A DNA stretch of 64,000 bases, from contig NC_007759.1 in the NCBI RefSeq assembly GCF_000013405.1, positions 1,303,001-1,367,000 on the forward strand. The letters run 5' to 3'. The position numbers and the translations under genes were made by a program. The notes under the pieces were generated by a model. It was not told the DNA's origin. It was given only the letters and a program-made list of their open reading frames with translations, and did not search any database. The DNA is from Syntrophus aciditrophicus SB (GTDB taxonomy: Bacteria > Desulfobacterota > Syntrophia > Syntrophales > Syntrophaceae). Shown here piece by piece: positions 2,068-64,000 of this stretch (its first letter is position 1; every line of letters begins with the position of its first letter).

Positions 2068-3411
2068 TCATTGCACCAGACGCAGCTTGATATCCTTGGC
2101 GATCTTGTTGAATATAGCCTGAAGTTCACCGGAAGTGGGAGCATAGAACTCGAATGATGGGCCGCTTGCTATCTGGGACAGAAAGTCACGATCAATGTTT
2201 CCCAGGCCGATCGTATAGATCTTTACATTATTGTCCTTGAGTTCCTGTGCATGCTCAACGGCCATCCCTCTTGCAGTGGTGCAAATATAAGTGGACAGCG
2301 GCGCAGTTGTGTTTGACGAACCGACTGTCGGGATGAAGCAGGATTCCGAGTTATAGGTCGTTCCCCTGTAAGTCAGTCGATAATCGGGATCATCCAGTAC
2401 GTACCATTTGGTGGTGTTGACGTAGGAACCTCCATATCGTGTTGTGCATTTTGAGGTTCCCGTTCCTGGGGGCTTTGGTTTGCCGTCGCCGGTAAATCGC
2501 GGGTTGTAGCTCAACCACTCTTCCCTCTCGGGTTTGCCGAGCTTGGTGTAAACCGTACCACAGTCGTTGCCGGTACCGCAGACCACGGCGTCGATATTGT
2601 CTGTGCCGTTGTATTTGAATTTCCCTCTGAATGCCGTAGGATTCCCGTCCGAGAAGAAAATCACGAACTGCTGGACGCGTTTGTTTCCTGGAACCCCGCT
2701 CTGGTCTGTGAGTCCTCCCTTTGCAGGGTTGCCTGCCTGCGACAGGGAATCCTCGGCATTTGTCGCGCCGACGGCGTCCATCGCGTTGATTTTGCTGGTC
2801 ATGGAGGAAACATAATTATTTCCAAGGGGAACATCGACCTTCACACTTGTGGCAAAGCTGACGAGACCCATCTTGTCCTGGTCCTGAGTCTCTTCAAAGA
2901 AGCTGACAAAGCTCCGTGCGGCTTTCTTCAGGTCGTTCATAGGCGTACCGTCCATCGATCCCGAGCGGTCGAGCACCAGCATGATTTCCACTTCATTCTT
3001 TTTGGCCACGCCCATGGCGCTCGTGGCGACCCAATCCACCCCGAAGAGTCCGGCAAGATTCCCGGGAGAACTTACTGTGCCCTCCACCCGGATGCGATGA
3101 TCCTCGTCCGCATAAGCGGTGAAGGTTGCCGATCTTTCCCCTGAATCCGGAGTCATCAGATAGCCGGCGGAGAAGTTCTCTCTGGCGACCTCCTCTGCCA
3201 GTCTCAAATGTCCGTCTTCTCCGAGATAGGGATTTGAGATGTTCTTTGCGCCGGCGATGGCCCCCGCATCGACGCTCTTGGAAAGTTCGGAGCGCGTCGT
3301 GTACCAGCGTCCCACATCAACTGCCAGCGCCGTGAACCCGAGAAGCACGATCAACAGAAGAGCGAAAATGATCAGGACCGCTCCTTTCTGATTCTTAATC
3401 GTTGTGTTCAT
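2068..3411 (-). CDS. TadG-like pilus protein with von Willebrand A domain
   Basis: 447 residues. The N terminus is a TadE/TadG pseudopilin-type segment: KGAV followed by one long hydrophobic helix (residues 8-31). A von Willebrand A domain follows, with an intact metal-ion adhesion site start (DRSGS, D148-S150-S152), and the C-terminal half resumes with TIGLG near residue 410. Between these lies an extra stretch of about 100 residues containing five cysteines and many Thr/Gly/Tyr. Surface-exposed vWA pseudopilins are known as adhesive or tip components in Tad-type systems, and that role is inferred here. Strong ribosome site (AAAGGAG, 7 bases before ATG). It is the last gene of the leftward tad operon. 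Confidence 0.85.
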   Translation of the reverse strand: MNTTIKNQKGAVLIIFALLLIVLLGFTALAVDVGRWYTTRSELSKSVDAGAIAGAKNISNPYLGEDGHLRLAEEVARENFSAGYLMTPDSGERSATFTAYADEDHRIRVEGTVSSPGNLAGLFGVDWVATSAMGVAKKNEVEIMLVLDRSGSMDGTPMNDLKKAARSFVSFFEETQDQDKMGLVSFATSVKVDVPLGNNYVSSMTSKINAMDAVGATNAEDSLSQAGNPAKGGLTDQSGVPGNKRVQQFVIFFSDGNPTAFRGKFKYNGTDNIDAVVCGTGNDCGTVYTKLGKPEREEWLSYNPRFTGDGKPKPPGTGTSKCTTRYGGSYVNTTKWYVLDDPDYRLTYRGTTYNSESCFIPTVGSSNTTAPLSTYICTTARGMAVEHAQELKDNNVKIYTIGLGNIDRDFLSQIASGPSFEFYAPTSGELQAIFNKIAKDIKLRLVQ

Positions 3412-3452
3412 GATTTTGCTCCTTTCCGCGGATGTCTTATCGTATCATTAAT

Positions 3453-4055
3453 TTAAAAGACAGCTTTGCTGCTGATGATCATATTGCCCAACAGGGGGGT
3501 GCCCCAGAAGGTCTGGGCAATCTGGGTGATAGGAGTAATCGGAGTGTAACGATAAAAGACCTCGACAACGGTGATATCGCTGATATCCGCGGTAGCATTT
3601 GCGTCATTGAATACAAGATGATCGTAAAGCTCGCTGGACAAGCCGAGATTGGTCATATCGTCCCCGATGGAACTCGCCACCCCCAGAGATCCTGCGCTGT
3701 CACTATTGGAGGCATCGATAGTGGGGTCAGGATCATCCTCGCTGCTGCCGGCGTCGATTTTCCAGACATAGATTCTTCCCGCTGCATTAAGGTCCAGAGG
3801 CGATGACCCTGCTTGGAGCATCGTAATGATGTCCGATGCGGATTGAATGTCCCGGGAAACGAGGCTCCCGCCTTCCCTGGCTAGATTGGTAATGACGAGA
3901 CGAGCCTGAAACAGTCTCCCGAAATCAATGACCGCAAAGGCAATGAGGATCAGCAGAGGAAGGATGATCGCCAGTTCCAGGGCGGCAATCCCCCGCTCGC
4001 CTGAATGATAGTAACGGCGATGCCGTTTCTCTGTAATAGCTTCCGGATCCTTCAT
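3453..4055 (-). CDS. TadE-like pseudopilin
   Basis: 200 residues. After a 20-residue basic N terminus comes the TadE signature: ERGIAALELAIILPLL, one hydrophobic helix with a Glu near its start, then FGRLF. TadE proteins are cleaved by the prepilin peptidase and assembled as minor pilins of Tad pili. The extracellular part is Asp/Ser-rich without a known domain. The ribosome site (AGGAGGT) is well spaced. It lies between another TadE gene and the vWA TadG gene, 41 bases from the latter, so the three probably form a co-transcribed minor-pilin set. Confidence 0.85.
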   Translation of the reverse strand: MKDPEAITEKRHRRYYHSGERGIAALELAIILPLLILIAFAVIDFGRLFQARLVITNLAREGGSLVSRDIQSASDIITMLQAGSSPLDLNAAGRIYVWKIDAGSSEDDPDPTIDASNSDSAGSLGVASSIGDDMTNLGLSSELYDHLVFNDANATADISDITVVEVFYRYTPITPITQIAQTFWGTPLLGNMIISSKAVF

Positions 4056-4108
4056 ATCGTACCTCCTGATGGCAATCTAAGCGGAAAATACTGTGTATTG
4101 AAAAACTT

Positions 4109-4597
4109 TCAGAACAGCTCGTTCCTGTATAGCGCCTGGGCTTGGATCACGTTGGCCCCCGACGGGAAGAAATTTCCAATAAGTGGGGTAAGAAAATGAT
4201 AGGTGTAGCGAACACGCACCCGCATGTAGTCGCCGCCGCTGCCGGGGTTCTGACTCTCCTCCCAGCCTTCCGGATCAGAATAGCCCGCGGCGACGGGATA
4301 GATGCTTATCTGGAGTGCAGCCGGGTCCACCGCTAAGGCTGCGTTATCCTGGATTGTCTTTATGATCGAATCTTCCCGGCTCATTTCATTGCCGTCTTTG
4401 TCCTTGAGTTGAACTCCGACAAGGGCAAGCCTGGTTCCCTCGCGGGTGGCGAACTGGATCGTGTGCTGAGAGTAAAAGTACCAGCCGAAATCAATGATGG
4501 CAAAAAGCAGGAGGAAGAAAAACGGCATGATCAGTGCGAACTCGACGGCTGTCACGCCTCTGCTGTCGGAAAGAATCCGTTTGCTTATTTTCTTCAT
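4109..4597 (-). CDS. TadE-like pseudopilin
   Basis: 162 residues from ATG 4597, chosen because GGAGGT lies 7 bases upstream; the frame is open 33 bases further but without a ribosome site. The protein begins MKKISKRIL, then SRGVTAVEFALIMPFFFLL, the TadE motif with Glu in the first part of the membrane helix, followed by FGWYFYSQHTIQ and REGTR. It is the second TadE gene in the left part of the tad operon. The likely role is a minor pilin processed by the peptidase encoded at 16147-16689. Confidence 0.87.
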   Translation of the reverse strand: MKKISKRILSDSRGVTAVEFALIMPFFFLLLFAIIDFGWYFYSQHTIQFATREGTRLALVGVQLKDKDGNEMSREDSIIKTIQDNAALAVDPAALQISIYPVAAGYSDPEGWEESQNPGSGGDYMRVRVRYTYHFLTPLIGNFFPSGANVIQAQALYRNELF

Positions 4598-4635
4598 TCC
4601 GTCCACCTCCTTGATTGAAATCCTCGCCAAGTAAA

Positions 4636-4851
4636 TCAGGCCCGATGTAAGAGCTTACATTTCTTGAGAAGCCGTTGTTTGTCCCCGGTGGCGTTTTTCC
4701 TGGCTGATTCGGCCTGGCCAATATTTTCATGGGCTTTGACATGGAAACCGGGTTTTAATTCAAGAGCCTTTTCAAAGGTGGCCAGTTTTCTACCCTCCAT
4801 GTAAAAAGCAGGGGAGCAACTTGGCAACTGGTTCGCTGGACGACTCATCAT
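4636..4851 (-). pseudogene. Remnant of a TPR protein gene
   Basis: A 71-codon frame whose middle (about residues 15-52) resembles the C-terminal end of the complete TPR lipoprotein encoded just upstream (5076-6074). Both have a FEKA-ELKP core and then FHVKAHENIGQAESARKN here against FYVKASENMAKAKAAMKN there. There is a 4-residue gap in the repeat. No signal peptide and no full TPR pair remain, and the first 13 residues look unrelated. Most likely a decayed partial duplication; a small expressed protein cannot be excluded. Confidence 0.55.
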
Positions 4852-5075
4852 ATTATCTGGTTTGATGTTAATAAATCGGGTTAAAAAGGATTTATCGCGT
4901 TGAAAATTCTTATTTTCATCTAAGTGAAAATACTTAAATTCAGGGACGATTTTCCGCTGCTACCAATGAGTTTCGGAATCCCTGTCCCGTTTACTCCTGA
5001 TTTTGCCATTGATCGGGTTTCTGAATTAAATCAGCTCTGTATCCGTTGTCATGAAAGCCGGCGCAAAAAGTAAGG

Positions 5076-6074
5076 TTATGGTGTTGAGGGGGTGTTTTTC
5101 ATGGCTGCTTTAGCTTTTGCCATGTTTTCGCTGGCCTTGACGTAAAAAGTGGGTTTCAGTTCAATAGCTTTTTCGAAGGCTGTCAGGGCTTTTTCGTATT
5201 TTTTGTCGGCCATGTAAATCATGCCCAGGTTATTGCAGGCAGATGCTTCGTCGCCGGCCCTCTTGAAGGCATTCATGGCGTCGTCAAAGCGCCCCAGTTT
5301 TCCGAGGGCCATGCCCAGGTTGTTGTAAGTCGCCGGCACTTTTTCGTTGATTCTCAGCGCCTTCGTGTACGCTTCTACGGATTTGCCGTATTCGCCCATC
5401 ATGTAATATGACATCCCCAGATTGTTGTAGAGCAGGAAAGAATCGGGCTTGACGGCAATCGCCTTCTGATAGGATTCAATTGCGTCATTGTAGCGATTCT
5501 GACGGTCATACATGAAGGCAAAAAGGCCATGGCACTGCCAGAAATCCGGCTTGATCTGAAGAGCCTTTTCCAGATTCTTTCCGGCCTTTTCATAATTTTT
5601 CAGGGCGAGGTGAACCCGGGCGATGCCTTCATAGGCCAGGGCGTTTTTCGGATCTTTCTTTTTCATCTCCTCGAAGGTCTTCATGGCTTCATTATTCAGA
5701 CCACGATTGAGAAGAAGCCGGCCCATTTTGTAGCGCGCGGAACCGGAATCCGAATCGAGACTCAGGGCCTTTTCGTACTGCAGAAAGGCCATATCCATAT
5801 TGCCCTGACGGATGTAGTTGTCCCCAACCTGTTCATAGCCTTCCGCCTTCATTTCGGGGACCTTGATGGCCAGCTCCTTTTCAAAGGCCATGTCGGCCTC
5901 CGCCCTCTGCTGGGCCAGTTCCTGATGGTAGGCCATCTGCTTCATCATGGCCTTCTGAGGATTGTTCGACGTGGCGCAACCCGGAATTCCCAAGGCTGCC
6001 GTGGTCACTGTGAGCAGGAGCGCGAGCTTTGTCAAAACGCCGCGGGCACTTGAACGTGAGCTGAAATCCTTCAT
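5076..6074 (-). CDS. TPR-repeat lipoprotein, TadD-like
   Basis: 332 residues. A type II signal peptide ends in a lipobox (GIPGC, lipid-modified C33), so it is probably anchored in a membrane facing the periplasm. About six to seven tetratricopeptide repeats follow (residues about 75-320), with repeated A-Y--LG--Y and A-------P patterns. In Tad loci such proteins are called TadD and act as pilotins or scaffolds for secretin or pilus assembly; that is the likely role here. The start codon overlaps the stop of the upstream gene by one base (TAATG), implying translational coupling. Ribosome site GGAGG lies inside the upstream gene. Confidence 0.85.
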   Translation of the reverse strand: MKDFSSRSSARGVLTKLALLLTVTTAALGIPGCATSNNPQKAMMKQMAYHQELAQQRAEADMAFEKELAIKVPEMKAEGYEQVGDNYIRQGNMDMAFLQYEKALSLDSDSGSARYKMGRLLLNRGLNNEAMKTFEEMKKKDPKNALAYEGIARVHLALKNYEKAGKNLEKALQIKPDFWQCHGLFAFMYDRQNRYNDAIESYQKAIAVKPDSFLLYNNLGMSYYMMGEYGKSVEAYTKALRINEKVPATYNNLGMALGKLGRFDDAMNAFKRAGDEASACNNLGMIYMADKKYEKALTAFEKAIELKPTFYVKASENMAKAKAAMKNTPSTP

Positions 6075-7087
6075 TAACCCCGATCCTCCGTGAAGACCTT
6101 TTTATAGGGAATAAGATCCTTGCCGACCAGAACGCGGACGCGAACGTCTTTTCTGTTTCCATCATTAAGCTTTTTCATATCCACTTCGCCGGGGATGATG
6201 GCCGCGATTTCCTGTGCGGTTTGCCGACCGTCCGGGCGATAGCTGACATTGCCTTTGGAATAGTTATAGGAATCGGCGTTTGTAAGCCGCACGACATTGT
6301 ATCCCTGCTTCTTCAGATACTCGCCTACATTGCGGGCCATGTGGCGCACGCCGTTGCCGTTTGCGACTTCAATGGCGATGTCGGCCTTATTTACGGAATT
6401 GGAAGGAATCGTGGCGGATGCGGAAGCCCGGGAAGCGGGCTGATCCGCCAGGGGATTCCGCTGAATCATGTGATTCCTGATGTGACCGTCCAGATCGAAG
6501 GAATTCACGGAGACAGCCGCGATTCGAGTCGACGCAGGCGCATCCTGCTGAATGGCGGCAGCCATCTGCGGCTTTTCGGAAAGGGCCAGGGCCATATTCA
6601 GGTTGTTGCCGATTTTGCCTCTCATGGCTTCATTTCCCGTCTGTTCAGCCGCTTTGCGGAAGGCCAGAACCGCCTCATTGTAGCGCTTCTGAAGGACATA
6701 GGAATAGCCGAGGTTGTTGTAAACATAACCGGCCTGGGGATTCAGCTTCAACGCTTTTTCATAGGCCAGATAGGCGCGGGGGAAATCCTTCAGCGCGTCG
6801 CAGGATATTCCGATTCCGTTATACGCCCGGACATCACCGGGATTGATGGCGATAACCTTCCTGAATTCTTCCAGCGCCTCCCGATGCCGGTTCCTGTCCT
6901 GATAATGACAGGCAAGCTGATAATGCGCCTCGGCATTGCCCCGGAAGGGCCTTACCTGAGAAAAATATTTCTCCTGAAACGCGTTTTTTTCCGACGTGCA
7001 TGATGTCAGAAAAAAGGGAAGAAAAAGAACAAGGAAAATGACAAGAGGTTTACAAAGCAAGGGAATCAATTGAATGCGTGTCTTCAT
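6074..7087 (-). CDS. TPR lipoprotein with LytR C-terminal domain
   Basis: 337 residues. The signal peptide ends in a lipobox (LTSC, C30). Three to four TPRs occupy about residues 50-165 and a low-complexity linker (A/S/P/N) about 165-235. A LytR_C-type domain (about 237-335) begins IAIEVANGNGVRHMARN and runs through YNVVRLTNADSYNY. Such domains occur in envelope proteins and may bind cell-wall or protein partners. Position within the tad operon suggests a second assembly or pilotin protein. Ribosome site GGGAGG, 7 bases before ATG. It overlaps the next gene by one base. Confidence 0.85.
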   Translation of the reverse strand: MKTRIQLIPLLCKPLVIFLVLFLPFFLTSCTSEKNAFQEKYFSQVRPFRGNAEAHYQLACHYQDRNRHREALEEFRKVIAINPGDVRAYNGIGISCDALKDFPRAYLAYEKALKLNPQAGYVYNNLGYSYVLQKRYNEAVLAFRKAAEQTGNEAMRGKIGNNLNMALALSEKPQMAAAIQQDAPASTRIAAVSVNSFDLDGHIRNHMIQRNPLADQPASRASASATIPSNSVNKADIAIEVANGNGVRHMARNVGEYLKKQGYNVVRLTNADSYNYSKGNVSYRPDGRQTAQEIAAIIPGEVDMKKLNDGNRKDVRVRVLVGKDLIPYKKVFTEDRG

Positions 7088-51973: not shown

Positions 51974-52468
51974 ATGACAATGGAGGATCAGACGCAGCCG
52001 GATTCAAAAACGGTAACTCATGAAAGAAAAACGGGTACGTTCATTAAATGGCTGATCATCGGAATTGCTGGAATTATCATTATTGCGGGAGGTCTGACCG
52101 GTGGGCTTCTTTACATTAAGCACGTATCGAAGGGCACGGAAAATCAGAAAAGTGGAAAATCATCCGTCGGCATTTTATGGCCGATGGAACCCTTCGTTGT
52201 CAATCTGGCAGACAGCACAGGCGACCGGTATTTAAAGGCGGTGATACAGATTGAGGTTTCCGATCAGGAAAATACGGCGGCGTTGGATCAACTCAAGCCC
52301 AAGTTCAGGGATTCGATACTGGATATCCTCTCATCCAAATCCTACAAGGAGCTTATGGAGGTCAGCGGAAAGCAACGGCTTCGTGAGGATATTGCATTCA
52401 AGCTGAACAGCTTTTTATCAAAAGGCAGAATCATGCGCGTTTATTTTACAGAATTTGTCATTCAGTAA
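51974..52468 (+). CDS. fliL: Flagellar basal-body protein FliL
   Basis: 164 residues. A short cytoplasmic N terminus, one membrane helix (about 25-50; WLIIGIAGIIIIAGG) and a periplasmic domain starting at GILWPMEPFVVNLAD and ending RIMRVYFTEFVIQ, as expected. FliL stabilises stator units. Ribosome site AGGGGG before the ATG. First gene of the fliL-flhB/flhA run, 10 bases before fliM. Confidence 0.93.
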   Translation: MTMEDQTQPDSKTVTHERKTGTFIKWLIIGIAGIIIIAGGLTGGLLYIKHVSKGTENQKSGKSSVGILWPMEPFVVNLADSTGDRYLKAVIQIEVSDQENTAALDQLKPKFRDSILDILSSKSYKELMEVSGKQRLREDIAFKLNSFLSKGRIMRVYFTEFVIQ

Positions 52469-60836: not shown

Positions 60837-60928
60837 ATGTTCCGCTGACAGGGTAGTGCATCGGGAAACGCCGGAAAAGAGCCTTTCCAATGTTGAAGAC
60901 AACCGACTATGCAATGAGGGGTAAAAGA

Positions 60929-61843
60929 GTGGATCAGGCCGAATCTCTAAGAGAACTGGTAAGGAAAAGAAACGAGACAAAATTTGGAAACCAGTCAGAA
61001 ATCGAGAAAAAAAATCGCATGAAAAAAAATTATGACCGAGTCAGAACCATTGCAATAACGAGTGGAAAAGGGGGTGTGGGAAAAACCAACATTACCGCAA
61101 ATCTGGCGTGTATGTTGGCTAAAATGAACAAAAAAACACTCGTTCTCGATGCGGACGTCGGACTGGCCAATATTGATGTCGTTCTCGGACTGACTCCGAA
61201 ATACAATTTGCATCATGTTCTTACTGGAGAACGAAGATTGTCGGAAGTGATTGTAGCCGGTCCAGGTGGTGTGAAGATTTTGCCTTCCGCGTCGGGTATT
61301 CACGAAATGACGGATCTGTCGCGGGGTCAGAAATTAACCCTGCTGGATGATTTAAATTCCATAAAAGAAAGTCTCGATTTCATGCTGATTGATACCGGTG
61401 CCGGTATTGCCGGGAATGTCATGTATTTCAATATGGCAGCAAGAGAAATCATTGTTGTTACTTCTCCGGAGCCAACGTCTCTTACTGACGCCTATGCTCT
61501 GATTAAAGTTTTGTATCAGCGATATGCAAAAAAAAGATTCCGGTTGTTAATCAATATGGTGAGAAGCGCTGCTGAAGCCAATAAAGTCTATCTTCGCCTC
61601 AGTTCAGCAACGGATCATTTCCTGAATTTAAACATTGAGTTCATGGGTTATATCCTTCATGACAAAAAATTACAGGAAGCCGTTAAACTGCGAAAGGCCC
61701 TCGTGGAGCTTTATCCTGATTCCAAGGCAAGTCTTTGTGTAAAGAAGGTGGCTGAAAAAATATGTGAAGAAAATCCTGAGTACGATGAAAGCGGGAGCAT
61801 CAGTTTCTTCGGGGAAAAAATCCTGGGTAATGAATGCAGATAA
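60929..61843 (+). CDS. flhG: Flagellar number regulator FlhG
   Basis: 304 residues from GTG 60929 (GAGGGG 7 bases upstream), giving the expected DQAESLRELV N terminus; the DQAxxLR motif is known to stimulate FlhF GTPase. Another ATG at 60890 lacks a ribosome site. MinD-like ATPase with Walker A KGGVGKT (47-53), VLDADVGLANIDVVLGL and FMLIDTGAGI. It limits the number of flagella. Overlaps the sigma factor gene by 14 bases. Confidence 0.93.
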   Translation: MDQAESLRELVRKRNETKFGNQSEIEKKNRMKKNYDRVRTIAITSGKGGVGKTNITANLACMLAKMNKKTLVLDADVGLANIDVVLGLTPKYNLHHVLTGERRLSEVIVAGPGGVKILPSASGIHEMTDLSRGQKLTLLDDLNSIKESLDFMLIDTGAGIAGNVMYFNMAAREIIVVTSPEPTSLTDAYALIKVLYQRYAKKRFRLLINMVRSAAEANKVYLRLSSATDHFLNLNIEFMGYILHDKKLQEAVKLRKALVELYPDSKASLCVKKVAEKICEENPEYDESGSISFFGEKILGNECR

Positions 61844-62549
61844 GAAAGATCGTGAAGCATTAATCTTGAAATATCTTCCCTTTGTAAAAGCTGTTGTAGG
61901 CCGCATGGCATCCAAAATACCCATTGATGCCGGGGACAAGGAAGATCTGATTCACGTGGGAATTATCGGCTTGATGTCCGCAATTGAAAAATATGATACC
62001 AGGAGAAACGTCCGCTTTGAAACCTATGCTGGAATCAGAATTCGAGGCGCTGTTCTTGACGAGTTAAGGGCAAGGGATTGGGTTCCAAGAGCTGTGCGCA
62101 GCAGGGATAATGAAATTACGAAGGCTATTTCGTCGTTGCAGAAGATATTGAGAAGAGCGCCGGACGATCATGAAATATCGGAATATTTGGGACTGTCTAT
62201 TGAAGAGTATTTTAAATTGCTGGATGATTCCCGTTGCATTTCACTGATCAGCAGCGAAGATTTACCCGGAGATTATCTGGATCGTTATTCCTGTTCCGAT
62301 GTAATCAGGGCCGTCGAACAGGGCAGTGCTCTAGATTTAATCACGGACCATGAGTTCAGAATGCAACTGAAGAAAGCCATGGAGCTGCTGCCTGACAAAG
62401 AGCGCCTGGTTTTGACATTATATTATTATGAGGAACTGACGATGAAGGAAATCGGTAAAGTTCTGGATTTAACGGAGTCGAGGGTATGTCAGCTTCATTC
62501 TCAGGCCATTTTCCGCCTCAGGGCGGCGGTAAAGAAAATTAACTTGTAA
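61830..62549 (+). CDS. fliA: Flagellar sigma factor FliA (sigma-28)
   Basis: 239 residues from ATG 61830, inside the end of flhG. Regions: 2 with HVGIIGLMSAIEKYD and RFETYAGIRIRGAVLDELRARDWVPR, the sigma-28 signature; 3 with LQKILRRAPDDHEISEYLGL; 4 with LPDKERLVLTLYYYEELTMKEIGKVLDLTESRVCQLH. It directs late flagellar gene transcription. Co-translated with flhG. Confidence 0.95.
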   Translation: MNADKKDREALILKYLPFVKAVVGRMASKIPIDAGDKEDLIHVGIIGLMSAIEKYDTRRNVRFETYAGIRIRGAVLDELRARDWVPRAVRSRDNEITKAISSLQKILRRAPDDHEISEYLGLSIEEYFKLLDDSRCISLISSEDLPGDYLDRYSCSDVIRAVEQGSALDLITDHEFRMQLKKAMELLPDKERLVLTLYYYEELTMKEIGKVLDLTESRVCQLHSQAIFRLRAAVKKINL

Positions 62550-62657: not shown

Positions 62658-63236
62658 ATGAAGAAGATTAAAAAAGACATTTCGGATTTCAGTCATCATG
62701 AGAACGACAATTGTGGAGAAGATTATTCCACCGGAGAGTCAAATCGATCCGACTCGCTGTCTCAAGAGAAAAATTTCGGGAGCCGTTGGAAGAAATCAAA
62801 AAAAAATGCAGTCGGTTATTGTTTAGCATTTGTTGCATTTTCTTCAGGCATTGCTTTTTTCCTGGTAGATTTCCATACATTGAAATTTAACAACGCTCCG
62901 GTTGAGAATATCACACCTGTTCAGCAGCCCGTAAAGTGTAAATTCGCATCGTTGCAGGATTTTATTATCAATTTTAAAGACGGCGGCGGAAAGGAAAAAA
63001 TTTTTGTTTGTGCCTTGGCGCTGGAAATAAGCCCGGATCACAAACTTGCATTCAAAGACGATCATTTTGACATCAGGAAAATGATTTATAAAAAACTTTT
63101 AACCTGCAGCCGGGAGAATACTTCTTTTCTTCAGGATAGAAACCGGTTAAGGGATTTCCTTTTCGTTGAACTTAATCAGCAACTTGGGGGAAATATCGTT
63201 ACCGGAATCTATTTCACAAAATTTATGATTTTGTAA
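62658..63236 (+). CDS. FliL-like second protein
   Basis: 192 residues. A charged cytoplasmic N terminus (about 1-50; many Asp/Ser/Lys) is followed by one membrane helix (about 52-72; YCLAFVAFSSGIAFFLVDF) and a periplasmic domain ending NIVTGIYFTKFMIL, close to the FliL ending (IMRVYFTEFVIQ), with the FliL-like FIINFKDGGGKEKIFVCALALEI strand. FliL homologue is likely. It lies 108 bases after fliA. Codon use is more AT-rich than the earlier genes. Confidence 0.7.
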   Translation: MKKIKKDISDFSHHENDNCGEDYSTGESNRSDSLSQEKNFGSRWKKSKKNAVGYCLAFVAFSSGIAFFLVDFHTLKFNNAPVENITPVQQPVKCKFASLQDFIINFKDGGGKEKIFVCALALEISPDHKLAFKDDHFDIRKMIYKKLLTCSRENTSFLQDRNRLRDFLFVELNQQLGGNIVTGIYFTKFMIL

Positions 63237-63301
63237 TATCTTTCTGTTTTTTTAACTGAGTATATCGGCATCGCTGAAGCGTCAGAGAGAGGAATTGATT
63301 G

Positions 63302-64000
63302 ATGAAGATTGCTGTAAGAACGAAAGAGTCTGCATACAAGGCTCTGGAAAGAGAATTTGAGTCAACGCTGGTAAATGAACTCATTCCCGGTATTCTGCAT
63401 AATTTCGCCAACCCCCTCAACGGAATCATGGGGCGTTCGAAACTGTTGCAAAGACGGATGAATGAGCATTTCAATAAAATTAAGGAATGTTGTCCGGATT
63501 TTGCCAGGGAAATCGTCGATGAGCAGGATAAATTGTCAACCGATGTGATCTCTATTTGCAAAGAATCCGATCGTTTTTTCTACTTGTTTCAGGATCTGGC
63601 ATCGAAGTTTTATGTTATCTCGGATAATAGGTTTGAGCGGATTAACTTAAAGAAACTCATCGAAAATGAACTTCGTTTTTTGGAATTTTACCTGGATTTC
63701 AAGCATGAAATAAAAAAAACGATCAAACTGACCAGCGATATGCCCTGGATATATGGGACTCAATCCGGTTATTCGCTATGTTTTTCCGCACTTTTAAGAA
63801 GCAGCATGTACAGAATGAAGAAAAGTGAAACAAAAGAATTATCCATTATAACCGATTGCGATGAGAGAAATATTATGGTTGTTATTCAGGATACCGGGGC
63901 AAAGATGATCGTCAATACGGATTCTGCAACTGAAGGGGATAGCTTACTGTCCTGCAATGTTGATATGTCAAGTCTTGTGTGTGTCCAGCTTCTTTTCAAA
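63302..64000 (+). CDS. Histidine-kinase-like protein, incomplete at window end
   Basis: 233 residues are visible, read by hand, with no stop before the end of the window. The start (ATG 63302, GAGG 9 bases upstream) gives MKIAVRTKESAYKALEREFE. The H-box LVNELIPGILHNFANPLNGI, with phosphoacceptor His33, fits a HisKA dimerisation domain. The region that should be the ATP-binding domain (about 140-230) is weak: no NxxxNA box, and DTGAKM where DxGxG is expected. It may be a degenerate kinase or a phosphotransfer protein. Confidence 0.65.
   Translation, partial: MKIAVRTKESAYKALEREFESTLVNELIPGILHNFANPLNGIMGRSKLLQRRMNEHFNKIKECCPDFAREIVDEQDKLSTDVISICKESDRFFYLFQDLASKFYVISDNRFERINLKKLIENELRFLEFYLDFKHEIKKTIKLTSDMPWIYGTQSGYSLCFSALLRSSMYRMKKSETKELSIITDCDERNIMVVIQDTGAKMIVNTDSATEGDSLLSCNVDMSSLVCVQLLFK

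Follow-up and report, generated by a model that had tools for sequence, protein, structure and literature searches.

In HisKA proteins, the acidic residue that follows the phosphoacceptor histidine is needed for kinase activity, while a threonine or asparagine four positions after the histidine is needed for phosphatase activity (PMC3510030). The Caulobacter protein ChpT is described as unable to use ATP or to autophosphorylate, and it shuttles phosphate on His33 (PMC3433190). PhyT from Sphingomonas (formerly PhyP) relays phosphate through a histidine despite its degenerated ATPase domain, and this conserved residue is reported to work between response regulators (PMC5898713). The pseudo-kinase DivL of Caulobacter has a tyrosine at the place of the histidine and is described as devoid of kinase and phosphatase activity (PMC4211667). 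The flagellum-tied kinases FlgS, FlrB and FleS, many of them predicted to be cytoplasmic, are presented as proteins with HisKA and HATPase_c domains and a cognate regulator; FlgS of C. jejuni is cytoplasmic and binds FliF and FliG (PMC7064773).

We analyzed a stretch of 64,000 nucleotides of Syntrophus aciditrophicus SB (G000:C1:1303001-1367000, hereafter the window), which ends within a gene for a histidine-kinase-like protein. We call the product of this open reading frame HKL. The gene lies on the forward strand, starts with an ATG at 63302 (a TTG is in frame at 63299), fills the window up to 64000 and continues to 64090. Its stop codon lies 90 bases past the window end, at G000:C1:1367090, and the full product has 262 amino acids. 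The H-box block PGILHNFANPLNGIMGR (residues 29-45; 63386-63436) contains His33, with its codon at 63398-63400, followed by Asn34 at H+1 and Asn37 at H+4. The signature FYLDFKH (residues 129-135; 63686-63706) belongs to the first helix of a CA-like domain. In the degenerate N-box helix (residues 158-172; 63773-63817) the asparagine is absent at positions 163 and 167, where alanine and serine are found, and the G1 box reads DTGAK (residues 197-201; 63890-63904) and lacks its second glycine. The G2 motif (GLGL) is absent from the last 29 residues, which are encoded beyond the window. An earlier note on the window had described His33 without an N-box asparagine and with DTGAK as G1, from the part of the gene up to 64000; the full gene bears out this description, and no canonical ATP-binding domain appeared in the remaining part. 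Profile scores agree with the degenerate ATP-binding domain that had been proposed there, since Pfam lists no HATPase_c match for HKL at E <= 10. The HisKA match scores 18.2 bits and falls below the cut-off of 26.9. Pfam and NCBIfam scans yielded no functional name, and among the few papers that narrow searches of the open literature returned, none names the protein in its title or at the beginning of its abstract.

The HisKA matches of the same genome, 22 in number, served as controls, and 20 of these were fetched. By eye, all 20 have a glutamate or aspartate after the histidine, and simple patterns recovered the N-box in 17 and DxGxG in 16. Compared with a HisKA sensor kinase, HKL has the phosphoacceptor histidine in a predicted DHp hairpin, but misses the profile cut-off, the acid after the histidine, and the N-box, DxGxG and G2 motifs.

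Within the order, HKL matches at E <= 5.1e-35 were obtained in 34 of 60 genomes, its own included; five further genomes gave weak matches only, to long open frames. A scan of an 84,980-species collection with two peptide patterns yielded 69 loci. They come mostly from sources named Syntrophaceae, Syntrophus, Smithella, Syntrophales or Deltaproteobacteria, with few others such as Desulfobacteraceae, Porphyromonadaceae and one Cloacimonadota. The smaller of two alignments uses 23 of 30 order loci, the larger one 58 of the 69 loci plus the window piece. For counts over 68 rows, L055 (split), L098 (a fragment) and L100 (distant) were excluded, and the query and G003 were added. L055 (7968-8753), from an aflagellate draft genome, is an HKL broken into two frames. 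The Cloacimonadota relative L100 (4281-4961) has the FYLDFKH motif and an N-box-like FLNAL, with 19% identity to the first row of the larger alignment.

The part around the histidine is nearly unchanged in the family. Residues P29, H33, N34, A36, N37, P38, L39, N40, G44 and R45, and with them the motif HNxANPLN, are invariant in all 68 rows. Mean entropy is 0.46 bits for the H-box region (residues 27-48), 1.14 bits around FYLDFKH (residues 123-141), 1.98 bits for the N-box helix and 2.98 bits for the lid region, the most variable part. His135 is present in 67 rows and Arg166 in 65. The residues of the ATP site behave differently: Asn167 and DxGxG occur in one row each, and Asn163 and a GLGL-type box occur in none of the 68; the first three residues of G1 (Asp-Thr/Ser/Asn-Gly) are kept in 30. 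No row has an acidic residue after the histidine. Among 23 aligned members, HisKA was matched at E <= 1 in all (best 1.7e-7), HATPase_c in six (best 0.0021). The same pattern is thus seen across 68 aligned members, and the degeneracy is a conserved trait of the family and not a chance feature of one gene. The idea of a pseudokinase with a decayed ATP site has gained support from the sequence, with the N-box, the second G1 glycine and G2 all missing, although lost motifs do not prove that nucleotide binding is lost. Acceptance of phosphate or binding of a regulator, which the earlier note had offered as functions, is plausible given His33 in all 68 rows.

An AlphaFold2 model of the homologue L032, computed with 59 rows, reached a pLDDT of 88.9 and a pTM of 0.84 and predicts a Bergerat-like domain together with a long DHp hairpin of two helices. 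At the expected place of the lid, residues 218-225, the pLDDT drops below 50. Foldseek matched the model to histidine kinase catalytic cores (HK853, ZraS, YycG), to DivL (4q20) and, at rank 48, to ChpT (4fpp; E 4.5e-9, TMq 0.39). A second structural comparison returned many histidine kinase CA domains at Z scores of 14-16, with NifL at 14.8; ChpT was not in its best 50 rows, which is no evidence against the likeness. Among solved structures, NifL from Azotobacter (9qq6) gave the best profile match (E 0.00016), which is weak and covers mostly the CA domain; in the structural alignment NifL shows 22% identity to HKL. NifL differs from HKL by its PAS domains and by ADP binding. The predicted fold does not by itself reveal the function of HKL.

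Compared with the described systems, the modeled protein resembles ChpT in combining a DHp hairpin with a Bergerat-like domain that would lack the usual ATP lid, and in both proteins His33 is followed by a proline five residues later, Pro38 (PMC3433190). The two differ in phylum and gene neighborhood, and HKL has no match to PF10090 (ChpT/HPTransfase) at E <= 10; the whole genome gave 11 matches at this threshold, none over the cut-off and none at HKL. PhyT shares the degenerated ATPase domain, but is described as membrane-anchored, with an HRxxN motif and a role in the general stress response (PMC5898713). DivL shares the histidine kinase fold and the loss of kinase function, but has PAS domains, and a tyrosine (PMC4211667) where HKL has an invariant histidine. 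The flagellum-tied kinases share the link to flagella; unlike them, as they are outlined in PMC7064773, HKL has no recognizable HATPase_c domain, and a cognate regulator was not found. In a different reading, HKL moves no phosphate and is a pure docking or sensor protein that binds a receiver and alters another protein, as DivL, or sequesters a regulator, as NifL. The CA fold kept as a shell in the AlphaFold2 model, the profile match to NifL, the fold match to DivL and the reported inactivity of DivL as kinase and phosphatase (PMC4211667) all speak for it. A pure binder, however, need not keep its histidine, since DivL has tyrosine there, and HKL has both His33 and Asn37 in every one of the 68 rows; we consider this reading unlikely.

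The HKL gene is part of a co-directional flagellar block with the order flhA-flhF-flhG-fliA-FliL-like-HKL-107 aa ORF-DUF6115-like-FliK-like-flgF-flgG-flgA-flgH-flgI. Pfam or NCBIfam is the basis for flhG, fliA, the FliL-like gene, HKL and the 107 aa, DUF6115-like and FliK-like ORFs, FlhA was recognized by search, and flhF and the flg genes were named from position and sequence. On the forward strand upstream of HKL lie flhG (MinD-like; 60890-61843), fliA (sigma-28; 61764-62549; TIGR02479, 250 bits) and, directly adjacent, the FliL-like gene (62658-63236; Pfam FliL 41.2 bits in one scan and 42.8 bits in another). The latter is a second, divergent FliL of this genome, and the other one, at 52181-52465 of the window, scores 95.2 bits. 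A FliL-like gene recurs upstream of HKL in the loci of relatives. A pattern scan of L001 from 3400 to 6100 found no terminator-like site, against a shuffle mean of 2.1 (sd 1.6). Also in L001, a DUF6115/DUF2802-like protein is encoded at 5521-6003, downstream of fliA; its position presumably recalls that of swrB after sigD in Bacillus.

At least two genes of the flagellar block were recognized near HKL in 48 of the 69 loci, including the broken run of L040, and 42 loci have fliA or a fliL-like gene upstream and the 107 aa ORF or the DUF6115 gene downstream within 1.5 kb. Across the 60 genomes of the order, HKL and FlhA are both present in 30 and both absent in 22, with HKL only in four (G011, G016, G027, G050) and FlhA only in four (G002, G018, G041, G056). 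The co-occurrence has a Fisher p of 1e-8, uncorrected for relatedness. Flagellar genes are present at L082 and L041, the loci that correspond to G027 and G050, and in these two FlhA may be missing from the draft only. HKL is gone in 22 of the 26 FlhA-less relatives; this makes the tie to flagella strong, and within this sample only a minority retains the gene.

HKL is nevertheless kept where flagella appear to be gone. Among the genomes behind the 69 loci, 19 drafts of untold completeness carry HKL although none of FliA, FlhA and FliM reaches its cut-off in them; G011, represented by L079, seems to belong to this set. Two of the 19 show traces of flagellar genes: L040 has a fliA that is split in two and contains a stop, and L056 has an FlhA remnant with a stop. 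L097 looks non-flagellar by its locus, but its genome has FlhA. In 14 loci from 13 of the 19 assemblies HKL is followed by trmFO, on the opposite strand and within 20-2530 bases, and topA was recognized in 13 and dprA in 11 of these; the names trmFO and topA rest on Pfam for L044 and L083 and on similarity for the rest. By size, these two commonest neighbors at non-flagellar loci had been considered as regulator and kinase partners, which was rejected once Pfam identified them in L044 and L083 as TrmFO (GidA) and topoisomerase I. In the genome of the window, trmFO-topA-dprA lies 28 kb from HKL, beyond the flagellin and HD-GYP genes, and trmFO marks the far edge of the flagellar island. With trmFO next to it in these 14 loci, HKL appears to mark the scar that the lost island left. 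A search for 13 further proteins of the block detected none in 13 of the 14 trmFO-adjacent loci, some of whose contigs stop less than 1 kb upstream. Two further island genes, an 80 aa ORF and the HD-GYP gene, are retained in L099; this locus shares its assembly, which is possibly mixed, with L053.

The aflagellate HKLs form several groups in a tree, with seven label changes at best and at least four forced by starred branches. This tree was built by a quick method that leaves out L055, L067, L098 and L100; its deep branches are weak, and a warning was given of long branches meeting (L096 with outside rows). Nine aflagellate pairs with dS of 0.1-1.1 gave dN/dS ratios of 0.10-0.27, and 22 flagellar-locus pairs gave 0.08-0.25, which points to purifying selection in both. 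Constraint is weaker in the aflagellate quartet L050/L051/L059/L065 (0.21-0.27) than in the flagellar sextet (0.08-0.16); the close aflagellate pair L076/L085 has a ratio of 0.80 at a dS of only 0.035, and several aflagellate pairs are saturated. With 19 marker-less draft genomes keeping the gene, HKL is not only a regulator of the flagellar hierarchy, and its retention suggests that its target reaches beyond flagellar assembly. The control of this hierarchy that had been suggested for the protein is accordingly weakened by these 19 genomes and by the purifying selection in nine pairs, whereas the underlying tie to flagella stands, by position and by FlhA co-occurrence.

The nearest receiver domain to HKL in its own genome belongs to a REC-GAF-HD-GYP protein (P0002) encoded about 25 kb downstream, with domains assigned by Pfam on the homologue L040. 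The next REC match is 148 kb away, and there is no other HisKA match within 150 kb. In total, 47 REC matches occur in this genome, 46 of which exceed the cut-off. Several frames elsewhere in the genome hold both HisKA and REC matches, so that possible phosphate donors exist. Just upstream of the regulator gene lies an ORF of about 80 residues (L106:10209-10448; G000:C1:1392209-1392448), and similar ORFs are present in L040, L075, L081, L086, L087, L099, L159 and L160; for those of L106 and L159, Pfam gave no match at E <= 0.01. The HD-GYP regulator and HKL are both present in 30 genomes and both absent in 21, with four and five discordant cases, which is what any gene of the island would show. 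Four of the 19 aflagellate genomes have an orthologue of the regulator, each within 1 kb of HKL (L040, L099, L076, L085), although this closeness may be no more than a result of where the deletions happened to end. No orthologue was found at E <= 1e-100 in the other 15, and we therefore rejected the regulator as the sole partner of HKL. This orphan regulator, whose gene lies at the island's far end, is a candidate partner. Two other arrangements were noticed: in L097 (7089-8723) a CheX gene, a CheY-like receiver gene and HKL stand in a row, with receiver and HKL frames overlapping by five bases, and in L079 the second gene from HKL, on the other strand, encodes an NtrC-type regulator.

One genome without FlhA, G016, retains FliM and a run of fliG-fliM-fliN-flhG-HKL-80 aa ORF-REC-GAF-HD-GYP, in which the homologue of flhG adjoins HKL. 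The run lies at L159:3387-9490 (G016:C23) and is a C-ring gene set without an export gate, in a genome listed as 100% complete. It fits a reading of HKL as a flagellar checkpoint of the FlgS type, which would sense the rotor or C-ring and control a regulator, with ATP use lost and rotor sensing kept. As in FlgS-type kinases, the gene neighborhood is flagellar; HKL has no sensor domain and co-occurs with FlhA, and binding of FliF and FliG by the cytoplasmic C. jejuni FlgS (PMC7064773) would offer a precedent. Against this, a receiver-bearing NtrC-type regulator was not found within 148 kb of HKL, though it may lie elsewhere, and the gene is kept in 19 genomes without flagellar markers, and we regard such a checkpoint as quite unlikely.

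A profile search of 297 genomes of the phylum gave matches at E <= 1e-8 in at least 169; many of the weaker matches fall in long open frames, probably those of ordinary kinases. We read 20 outside homologues, picked from different families. Five of them, L139-L143, keep Asn167 and DxGxG and lack a GLGL-type box; four of the five adjoin fliA, L139-L141 also with flhA, flhF and flhG, and L142 has no recognized flagellar neighbor. Among the other 15, 13 (L144-L152 and L154-L157) keep Asn167, DxGxG and a GLGL or GIGL box, and flagellar neighbors, recognized with proteins of the own genome over about 5 kb, were seen at none of the 15. The remaining two, L153 and L158, are from other families, also miss the N-box and G1 and have no recognized flagellar neighbor; L153 is short. 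The residue after the histidine is asparagine in 19 of the 20 and histidine in L152, so an asparagine at this place was rejected as a decay mark specific to the HKL family. The 13 homologues have no glutamate or aspartate after the phosphoacceptor histidine, yet their ATP site looks intact. Those with asparagine there may still be kinases, and Asn34 alone thus proves nothing.

A tree was calculated from 40 order members, 18 of the 20 outside homologues (L153 and L158 were left out), L100 and three kinases of the own genome. L139-L143 form one group (100/98), and the 13 intact homologues fall with the three own-genome kinases (81/88); L100 and several others are long branches. When rooted on the own-genome kinases, the tree places HKL and L139-L143 on one side. 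On that rooting, and with modest deep-branch support, the acid after the histidine would have disappeared before the origin of the flagellar lineage, and the N-box and G1 would have been the last to go.

The half-decayed homologues bear on the question whether HKL is a residual or unusual kinase, with a rebuilt site that binds ATP and autophosphorylation of His33. Asn167 and DxGxG are kept by L139-L143, and the first three G1 residues by 30 of the 68 rows. With the N-box asparagine in a single row of the order family, and neither a GLGL-type box nor an acid after the histidine in any of the 68, we judge a remaining kinase activity to be very improbable. That HKL is a functionless gene in decay that merely travels with the flagellar block, as its fast-evolving CA part and the split member L055 might indicate, is largely contradicted by the invariant H-box, by the dN/dS ratios of flagellar and aflagellate pairs alike and by retention where flagellar genes went, and it has hardly any probability left.

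We instead favor that HKL acts on receiver domains by ATP-independent phosphotransfer or as a phosphatase, a reading that has about an even chance of being correct and draws on the motifs, the model and the analogy to ChpT and PhyT. The invariant histidine and asparagine at +4, together with the loss of the residues for ATP use, favor these two activities. We propose that HKL is a soluble histidine-kinase-like protein that has no sensor domain and has given up ATP use. Its DHp helices, with His33, Asn37 and the conserved segment beneath the histidine, would serve as the docking site for a response regulator's receiver domain. HKL might then pass a phosphoryl group between receiver domains via His33, like ChpT and PhyT, which is possible but tentative, or it might drain phosphate from a receiver with Asn37, which we think more doubtful. 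The data show the degeneracy, the conservation, the predicted fold, the synteny, the purifying selection and the retention where flagellar markers are missing; from these we infer the absence of ATP use, the docking, the direction of phosphate flow and the partner. HKL may have originated in the flagellar block from a class of soluble kinases in which asparagine replaces the glutamate or aspartate after the histidine; G2 and the lid would have decayed first and the N-box and G1 afterwards, in Syntrophales-type lineages. A more far-reaching, speculative version, which is unlikely as a whole, is that a stepwise-decayed kinase of the flagellar operon links the C-ring/FlhG region to the c-di-GMP HD-GYP regulator as a phosphotransfer protein and is independent enough to have survived several separate losses of the flagellum, with the acid, then G2 and lid, then N-box and G1 lost in this order and the intermediates still alive elsewhere.

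The steps that lead from a kinase to a phosphate shuttle are rarely visible, though ChpT and PhyT show the outcome. Here, intact, half-decayed and fully decayed relatives coexist, and the half-decayed (in four of five cases) and fully decayed ones occupy the same place in the operon, so that each step is testable. The run in G016 raises the question of which role a switch complex has when the export apparatus is absent, and the retention of HKL in genomes without flagellar markers is a natural experiment for finding its partner. As the ATP part has decayed while the phosphate part is near-unchanged, and as some relatives keep the gene after the loss of flagella, HKL probably relays or removes phosphate in a wider signaling pathway. 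A protein that one would file as flagellar seems, from its aflagellate retention, to have another job.
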